48,396 bases of DNA from Deltaproteobacteria bacterium. Its GTDB lineage: Bacteria > Myxococcota > Myxococcia > Myxococcales > 40CM-4-68-19. The DNA is taken from the NCBI GenBank assembly GCA_025358085.1, contig JANYKT010000108.1, positions 1 through 48,396 of the forward strand, given 5' to 3'. Below the pieces are notes generated by a model. It was not told where the DNA came from, made no database searches, and was given only the letters and a program-made list of their open reading frames with translations. Numbering within the stretch: position 1 is the first letter of the stretch; the number at the start of each line of letters is the position of its first letter. The position numbers were made by a program, and so were the translations under genes. Positions 15,043 to 40,605 of this stretch are shown piece by piece.

Positions 15043-15118
15043 TGGAGCGGGAAGCGGGATTCGAACCCGCGACCTCCAGCTTGGGAAGCTGATGCTCTAC
15101 CAACTGAGCTATTCCCGC
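15043..15118 (-). tRNA. tRNA-Gly (anticodon CCC)
   Basis: 76 nt on the minus strand, with CCA encoded. The acceptor stem GCGGGAA/TTCCCGC pairs fully, as do the D stem GCTC/GAGC and T stem GCGGG/CCCGC with loop TTCGAAT. The anticodon arm has a CAGC/GCTG stem with an outer T-G wobble and loop TTCCCAA, giving anticodon CCC (reads GGG, Gly). All arms are intact. Its 3' 44 nt are duplicated at 14051-14094. Confidence 0.97.
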
Positions 15119-35151: not shown

Positions 35152-35490
35152 TCATCGCGCGCTCGTGAGCTTGCGCAGCGAGGGCTCGTCAAAGCCCGCC
35201 ACTACGGTGATTCCGTCGGACACGGTCGGCGCGCGCAGCGTTCCCTCGCGGCCAAGGAACAACTTGCGCAGCTCCTCATCCGAGGCGCTTGCGATCTCGA
35301 GTTCAATCATCTTCGCTCCCTTCTTCGCGACTCCATGCTTGTGTTTGCGCACGAGGGCAATGGCCTTATCGCCGGGGATAGGCTCCTTCCGCACGTCGTG
35401 GAAAGCGTGCGTCACTTCATTGAGTGCGAGAAACTCCCGCACCGGGCGACAACCCGTTCAATTGCGGCCGAAGAAAGTCAGCTTTGCCAT
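35152..35490 (-). CDS. Probable selenoprotein: ArsC/Spx-like thioredoxin-fold protein with U-x-x-C motif
   Basis: Read from ATG 35490 the frame is MAKLTFFGRN, then TGA at 35460-35458, then TGCRPVREFLALNEV and on to TGA 35154-35152: 112 residues counting the UGA codon as Sec. Both sides of the UGA are in one frame and belong to one fold. MAKLTFFGR is the first beta strand and REFLALNEVTHAFHDV the first helix and second strand. LRAPTVSDGITVVAGFDEPSL is the ArsC/Spx cis-Pro and C-terminal block. The UGA falls exactly where the first cysteine of C-x-x-C lies (C-T-S-C in Spx), giving U-T-G-C. A start at GTG 35442 would lose the strand and both redox residues. A short GC hairpin follows the UGA. 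It is likely a thiol/selenol reductase (arsenate- or disulfide-type). A Cys-to-stop mutation is the alternative. Confidence 0.78.
35436..35457 (-). promoter_or_regulatory. Candidate bacterial SECIS stem-loop behind the in-frame UGA
   Basis: On the minus strand, 11 nt after the UGA, CCCG pairs with CGGG around a GUG loop (hairpin 35446-35436), with a further C-G pair beyond one mismatch. Bacterial SECIS elements are short hairpins placed immediately 3' of the UGA with G/U in the apical loop, which fits. A competing 4 bp pairing (CGGG with CCCG nearer the UGA) also exists. The stem is short, so this is suggestive only. Confidence 0.4.
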
Positions 35491-35510
35491 GCGGCCCTTG
35501 TAGCAAGAAC

Positions 35511-37919: not shown

Positions 37920-38459
37920 TTGTCCAGGCTCGTTCGCATTCACCTTGCTCTAGGCCTCGCGGTCAGCGTGCCGCTCTTTTTCTGGGCGCTGTCGGGCCTC
38001 CTCTACGCGCTGCCGGTCTCTTCCGTCGCCGGCAGTTCCTATGCCGCGATTGATCCCGCGCGACTGCTGGTTGCACCGCCCGAGGCGCTGCGGCGCGCGT
38101 CGGACTTCGCCGGGCGGCCGTTGCCTGTCACCGCGCTGACGCTGCAACAGCGCGACGGTCGCTTGAGCTACGAAGCCATTGGCGGCCTCGGAATGGATTC
38201 AGTCACTGTGGACGCCGAGACAGGCGCCGCCTCGCTGACCGCGCCGCCGCAACCACTGACACGCTTCTTCCGCCAGGCGCACTTCTTCTACTTCGCGGGG
38301 CGCTTCCAGATCCCGCTGCTGGTCTTCTTCGCCGCGCTCTCCTGCGCGTCCCTCCTGAGCGGCCTCCTCCTCGCCTGGCGCCGACATCCCCGAGCGCGCC
38401 ACCGGGCGAGCCTGCGCATCAGAGGTCGAGTTCCTTCACGTCGGCGGCGCGGTCCATGA
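37920..38459 (+). CDS. Small PepSY-associated-type membrane protein
   Basis: 179 residues from TTG 37920; no better in-frame start is seen. [27 protein letters not shown] is the first helix of PepSY-TM proteins (H...G...P.....SG), shown here only in part. A periplasmic domain carries [14 protein letters not shown], the PepSY strand pattern, and a second helix has [24 protein letters not shown] with SGLLLAWRR. It is much shorter than iron-uptake PepSY proteins, with one PepSY unit and two helices. The basic tail (residues about 152-179) lies over the 3' end of parE on the other strand (41 bp overlap), and may be an artefact of stop loss. Function unknown. Confidence 0.6.
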
Positions 38460-40605
38460 TGAACTTGAAGCGCGCGGCGACGTCCTTGCCGAGCAGGTCA
38501 TTGATGGTCCGATCGGTCTCGAGTTCATTGTCGATCGTAACCTGCAGTGCCATGCGCCGCTTGGGGTCGAGCGTGGTTGATTTCAATTCATCGGCCGTCA
38601 TCTCGCCCAGTCCCTTGAAGCGCATGATGTTGGGCTTGGCGTTTCCTTTGACCTTCTCTTTCAGGATGCGATCGCGGTCGGGCTCGTCGAGGGCCCAATA
38701 GGTCTCCTTGCCGATCTCGATCTTGTAAAGCGGCGGCTGGGCGATATACACCGCGCCTGCCTTGATCAGCTCGCGCAGGTGCCGATAGAAGAAGGTCAGC
38801 AGCAGGGTTGCGATGTGGTGTCCATCGCTGTCGGCATCCATCAAGAGGAAGATACGGCCATAGCGAAGCCGCGTAGCATCGAAGTCCGCGCCGATGCCGC
38901 AGCCGAGCGCGCTGACGATATCAGTGAGTTCCTTGTTGGCCGTCACCTTGTCGGTCGAGGCCTGCTCGGCATTGAGCACCTTGCCGCGCAGGGGAAGGAT
39001 GGCCTGCGTGCGCCGGTTGCGGCCCTGCTTGGCTGAGCCGCCGGCGCTGTCGCCTTCGACGATGAACAGCTCGCTTTCAGCGGGATTGGTCGATGAGCAG
39101 TCGGCGAGCTTGCCCGGCAAATTCATCCGGTGCGAGACGGCAGTCTTGCGCGTCACCGCCTGCGCCGCGGACCGGGACGCCTCGCGGGCGCGCGCGGCCA
39201 GGATGATTCGCGCAATCACCGACTCGGCGACACTCTGGTTGTCGTTCAGCCACTTCTCCAGCGCCGGCCGCACCGCCGAGTCTACCTGCGCCGCGATCTC
39301 GGGATTGTTCAGCCGGCCCTTGGTCTGCCCCTGGAATTGCGGATCGACCACATAGGCAGAGAGAATCACCGCGATACCTTCGCGGATATCCTCGGCGGTC
39401 AGCGTCACTCCCTTGGGACCCAGCGAGTGCGTCTCTATATAGTTGCGCACCGCCTTGACGATTCCCGAACGCAGCCCCGCCTCGTGGGTGCCGCCATTGA
39501 CGGTGGGTATTCCATTCACGTAGCTGCGGACGTGCTCGTCGGTGGCCTCGGTCCAGACCAGCGCCACCTCCAGCCGGACTTCGTTCTCGACCATTTTATA
39601 GAACAGCGCCCCCGGCGGGATCTGCAGCGGCGCGCTCGTGGGCACTTCCGCAATCTCACTCTCCTGCGCGGTGTTCTCCTCCATCACGCCGTCGGCGGAG
39701 ACCAGCGGCTCGGCCCCGGAGGCTCCGGAAACACCGGAGGCTCCGGAGGCTCCGGCGGCTCCGGCGGCTCCGGCGGCCGGGGAGACATCGGAGGCTCCGG
39801 AACCCTCGGACGCGTCGGCGCCGGCCGGGGCCAAAGGATTCACCCGCGCAGCCTCGCGCGCGCGCGGCGCCCCGGGCACCGTATTCTTCCCCCGCTCGGC
39901 CACCACCTTGGCGAGGTATTCGGCAATACCCCCTTCGTGCTGGAAGGTCTCCTCGACGGCGGGACTCTGCGTCTCGTCGCGCCAGACCACAATCATACCG
40001 CGATGCAGATAGCTCTTCGCCTCCAGCCGCTCGCGGATCAGCCTGGGATCGAACCGCGCCTTGACCCCGAAGATCTCGGCGTCGGGCGTGAACGTCATCG
40101 ATGTCCCGGTCCCGCGCGCATTCCCTTCCGCTTTCAATTTCGAGGTCGCGAGTCCGCGCGCATAGGTCTGCATATAATGCTTGCCGTCGCGCTTCACCCG
40201 CGCAATCAAGACCTCCGACAGCGCATTGACCACCGAAGAGCCGACGCCGTGCAAGCCGCCCGAGTGGATATAATTACCCTGCTCGAACTTCCCTCCCGAA
40301 TGCAGCGTCGTGAGGATGACTTCAATGGCCGGCTTCTTGTACTTCGGCATCATATCGACAGGGATACCGCGGCCATCGTCAGTGATGGTCATGGTCCGGC
40401 CGTCGCGCGCGAGCGTTACTTCGATGCGCGCGGCATATCCATTGATGACCTCGTCAACCGAGTTGTCGAGGATCTCCCAGACGAGGTGGTGATATCCCGA
40501 AGCATCGGTCCCGCCGATATACATGGCCGGCCGCTTCCGGACTGGCTCGAGGCCCTCCAGCACCTGGATATCAGCAGCATTGTAAGTTGCCTTCTTGATA
40601 GCCAT
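38419..40605 (-). CDS. parE: DNA topoisomerase IV / gyrase subunit B (ParE/GyrB)
   Basis: 728 residues. The GHKL ATPase has [53 protein letters not shown] (in part); the transducer has [22 protein letters not shown] motifs are [21 protein letters not shown] and [20 protein letters not shown], and the C-terminal end has [14 protein letters not shown] and TTLDP. Start ATG 40605 overlaps the parC stop (TGATG), so the two subunits are co-translated. Without the extra GyrB insert, and beside a ParC-like subunit lacking a GyrA box, topoisomerase IV is more likely than gyrase. An Ala/Gly/Ser/Glu-rich insertion of about 90 residues (about 241-330) interrupts the ATPase/transducer region. Confidence 0.9.
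39711..39798 (-). repeat. 9 bp tandem repeat inside parE coding an Ala/Gly/Ser tract
   Basis: On the + strand the unit GGCTCCGGM is repeated about eight times with minor changes (39711-39798). It encodes a tract of Gly-Ala-Ser triplets in residues about 270-298 of ParE. The reading frame is preserved because the unit is a multiple of three. Copy number could vary between strains. Confidence 0.75.

Follow-up and report, generated by a model that had tools for sequence, protein, structure and literature searches.

Does the TGA inside a short minus-strand reading frame terminate translation, or does it encode selenocysteine (Sec)? The frame lies at 35155..35490 of the window, by which we mean the whole 48,396-nucleotide stretch of DNA analysed here. 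It comprises 112 codons: an ATG at 35490-35488, nine further codons, the TGA at 35460-35458 as codon 11 and another 101 codons, followed by a terminal TGA stop at 35154-35152. The product reads MAKLTFFGRN-UGA-TGC...LTSAR (minus strand, 35490-35155), and the UGA (35458..35460, minus strand), the proposed Sec codon, thus takes the first position of a U-T-G-C motif. Between the UGA and the stop the frame is open, no other lesion is found in the 112 codons, and GC content by codon position downstream of the UGA is coding-like (0.67/0.45/0.76). A Shine-Dalgarno-like AAGGG (35495..35499, minus strand, read from the sequence) is located a few nucleotides 5' of the ATG. ORF calling under table 11 returned a 96-amino acid ORF as the sole call, which starts downstream of the UGA with a GTG (35442-35152) and has no comparable Shine-Dalgarno sequence. 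That is, one frame spans the UGA and then ends in a true stop, as an earlier note on this DNA had read it, and pipelines would give the truncated 96-residue protein which that note expected.

To see what relatives encode in the UGA column, we searched 195 genomes of the phylum and obtained matches in 19 of them, the window's own genome included. Among the 18 homologues, 16 carry UGA in this column and two carry Cys (G012 and G191), so that the column is Cys/Sec across the family and the UGA coincides with the first Cys of the C-x-x-C motif known from ArsC/Spx-like proteins. A scan of genome contigs gave one weak partial match (L070). The nearest homologue, from genome G012 (L023 / L033:8631-8969), is 49% identical to the window protein and has Cys in this column although its genome possesses a tRNA-Sec, which we counted against the selenoprotein reading. 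In a small tree (116 columns, midpoint root) the window protein pairs with this Cys protein (support 99/93), while L071-L074 and the Spx-like sequences (L024-L029 and L063-L069) form separate clades that are mainly or wholly Sec. Folding and alignment at the corresponding place revealed no SECIS-type hairpin in the G012 gene; this loss fits a Sec/Cys exchange within the clade of the two proteins.

Behind the UGA of the window gene, a bSECIS-type hairpin is formed by GUGCGGGAGUUUCUCGCAC (35424..35442, minus strand). bSECIS elements have been described by a loop of 3-9 nt with a G in the first two positions, a stem of 4-16 bp, a UGA-to-loop distance of 16-37 nt and an MFE <= -7.5 (PMC13188914). 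The window hairpin falls within these ranges: it begins 16 nt 3' of the UGA, has 8 bp and the loop GUU at a distance of 23 nt, and folds with -10.2 kcal/mol. Most of the UGA homologues have the same hairpin at the same position despite about 30% protein identity; the exceptions are the distant L073 and L074, with altered hairpins at that place, and L027, which folds differently. Across 12 sequences, 90.6% of the cells pair and both-sided changes occur at three of the eight pairs. None of 500 shuffles reached the covariation score, which also exceeded every slid control; kinship of the sequences can inflate the shuffle test, against which the slid control partly guards. The window gene contributes a compensatory change of its own, as its second pair is U-A versus C-G in the rest. 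Synonymous recoding with local codon usage served as a control for a protein-level cause of hairpin conservation. All eight pairs formed in 102 of 20,000 recodings, and 158 of 5,000 folded at least as stably in the hairpin stretch; the rare codons TTT (15%) and GCA (5%) sit exactly where pairing requires them.

We then asked whether the genome encodes the machinery for Sec insertion. The draft assembly (5.42 Mb in 217 contigs, estimated 98% complete with an estimated 3% contamination) contains selA, selB including the SECIS-binding winged helix 3 (PF09107), and selD (L018 on contig C203 of G000). All three are located on contigs other than the window's, which, given the contamination estimate, speaks against the selenoprotein reading; their GC content of 0.67-0.69 versus 0.66 for the window lends weak support to a shared genome. 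The selD gene itself has an in-frame UGA at its active-site Cys position (HGAG-U-ACK) and, behind it, the hairpin GCCCAG-GUC-CUGGGC, so that the organism's own SelD is likely a selenoprotein too.

A tRNA-Sec was not found in the 217 contigs with Rfam RF01852, two tRNA patterns, BLASTN using a family tRNA-Sec as query, or a custom covariance model built from the tRNA-Sec of six relatives, where the RF01852 scan scored 150 of 1,030 candidates and the custom-model scan likewise scored part of its candidates. The flanks of selA, selB and selD did not yield one either. Candidates were rejected upon inspection: the RF01852 matches are tRNAs for Leu, Ser, Tyr, Arg and others, a pattern candidate of 20.9 bits is a false match inside a coding region, and the best-closed tRNA of the second pattern search (L096) reads as tRNA-Leu(CAG). 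The tRNA-Sec gene, about 99 nt long, may have fallen into a gap of this draft assembly. Of the selA, selB, selD and selC genes whose presence the earlier note had made a test of its reading, the first three are in place and selC was not found in the draft. Among nine relatives tested, six have a tRNA-Sec (G001, G002, G007, G036, G010 and G012). The four tested relatives that carry the UGA gene, G001, G002, G007 and G036, are all among these six. G010 has the tRNA with no UGA gene detected and G012 has it together with the Cys form; in G003, G004 and G005 neither the tRNA nor the UGA gene was found.

Which family does the protein belong to? The best model was NCBIfam NF041106 (ArsC_rel_Se_1), matched over nearly the full length with E=3.2e-17 and 63 bits versus a cut-off of 85. 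The Cys sister of G012 also stays below this cut-off (76.7 bits), while L071 and L072, the two scanned of L071-L074, pass it. The Spx/MgsR model TIGR01617 gave 26.7 bits versus a curated cut-off of 75. The arsenate reductase models TIGR00014 and PF03960 had no match at E<=0.001 (PF03960 none at E<=1), and a Pfam scan of the 112-amino acid product returned no significant match. By sequence, the nearest solved structures are those of Spx (E=9e-6), whose C-x-x-C aligns with U11-T-G-C14; ArsC structures are far weaker (0.74). A single-sequence AlphaFold model (pLDDT 36.7) was too poor to use. As the NF041106 match is strong in E-value yet below the cut-off, we regard the protein as a divergent neighbour of that known family rather than a new kind. 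It is conceivable, though we would not favour it, that the window protein, together with the Cys protein of G012, represents a separate, unmodelled ArsC/Spx-like (seleno)protein subfamily in which Sec takes the place of the redox-switch Cys and may serve for selenium-based redox sensing.

Downstream of the gene lies an MBL-fold hydrolase (PF00753; 34380..35066, minus strand) that could be co-transcribed with the selenoprotein gene. It had been taken for ETHE1-like, but is best described as glyoxalase II-like, with 123.6 bits for TIGR03413 (below the cut-off of 200.8) versus 61 bits for the ETHE1/Blh type. The earlier note had called this context unusual. In G012 the neighbour on the downstream side resembles, by its translation, an amidohydrolase-type enzyme, so the two genes are not paired in that genome, and the listed flanking ORFs of the relatives established no conserved neighbour. 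Elsewhere in the window, a GyrB/ParE-like subunit (38419-40605, minus strand) contains a mid-protein Ala/Gly/Ser-rich insert of about 85 residues (...VPTSAP), noticed by eye in the ORF translation, and an ordinary tRNA-Gly with the anticodon CCC is encoded at 15046-15118 (minus strand).

Taken together, the Cys/Sec column, the covarying hairpin, selA, selB and selD, and the family match support the proposal of the earlier note: the gene product is very probably a selenoprotein within the ArsC/Spx branch of thioredoxin-fold proteins, with Sec at residue 11 and a U-T-G-C redox pair. Our main reservation is that the searches of the draft assembly detected no tRNA-Sec. During translation, SelB with Sec-tRNA would bind the hairpin, which spans nucleotides 16-34 after the UGA, and selenocysteine would be inserted at residue 11. 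Selenol and thiol of the U-T-G-C would then act as a pair, either reducing a disulfide or selenylsulfide or using it for sensing.

An assembly in which no tRNA-Sec was detected and a nearest homologue with Cys are also what one would expect if codon 11 of a Cys protein had turned into TGA by nonsense mutation or consensus error, so that the frame would be either a recent pseudogene or an artefact of assembly. Such an event would have had to hit the one column in which relatives have UGA, directly before a hairpin with compensatory changes, in a genome with SelA, SelB and SelD and with no further lesion in 112 codons; we consider it highly improbable. Least probable of all is that the 96-amino acid protein from the GTG at 35442 is the sole product, with the UGA ending an upstream peptide. 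The ORF does exist under table 11, but its product would have neither the first strand nor the redox motif, the homology begins upstream of the UGA, and it is the ATG at 35490 that has the AAGGG.

A different question is which reaction a selenoprotein of this kind would catalyse. The ArsC-superfamily relationship would allow for a true glutaredoxin-dependent arsenate reductase in which Sec replaces the catalytic Cys. Glutaredoxin-type arsenate reductases have a C-x-x-S motif, while Spx has C-x-x-C. Two papers give the Sec form of the former motif as UxxS (PMC2398784, PMC13188914). Since the U-x-x-C of the window protein is nearer to Spx than to C-x-x-S, arsenate reduction is unlikely, and the missing significant matches to PF03960 and TIGR00014 as well as the ranking of the Spx over the ArsC structures also argue against this improbable variant. 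Most likely, the selenoprotein is a selenol/thiol-disulfide oxidoreductase and not an arsenate reductase.

We know of no member of the Sec-containing ArsC-like group whose function has been tested. Such proteins, which the earlier note had also mentioned, were described as early as 2005-2006 (PMC1088965, PMC1794560), their UxxC form has been reported (PMC2398784), and NF041106, 'ArsC family (seleno)protein', is a listed arsenate reductase-like selenoprotein family with UxxC (PMC13188914). With NF041106 the window protein shares the fold family, the position of the UxxC motif and the existence of both Sec and Cys forms; it differs in its score below the cut-off and in its clade with the Cys homologue, apart from L071-L074. 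The Spx/MgsR-like and 'ArsC 2' (cd03032, UxxC) selenoproteins (PMC2398784) have class relatives in L024-L029 and L063-L069, which resemble the window gene in their UTGC (UVGC in L026) and the hairpin GYGCGGGAGUUUCUCGCRC, but form a separate clade with about 26-32% protein identity. The C-x-x-C redox switch of B. subtilis-type Spx (PDB 1z3e, 3l78) aligns with U11-C14, although the similarity is weak (E 9e-6) and the window protein has Sec for the first switch Cys. The window gene thus adds a new, divergent sequence to a group that is already known. With its NF041106 score below the cut-off, standard annotation would probably truncate the gene. For the Sec-containing ArsC-like group, the gene is an example of a SECIS hairpin that compensatory changes have preserved as protein identity fell to about 30%.
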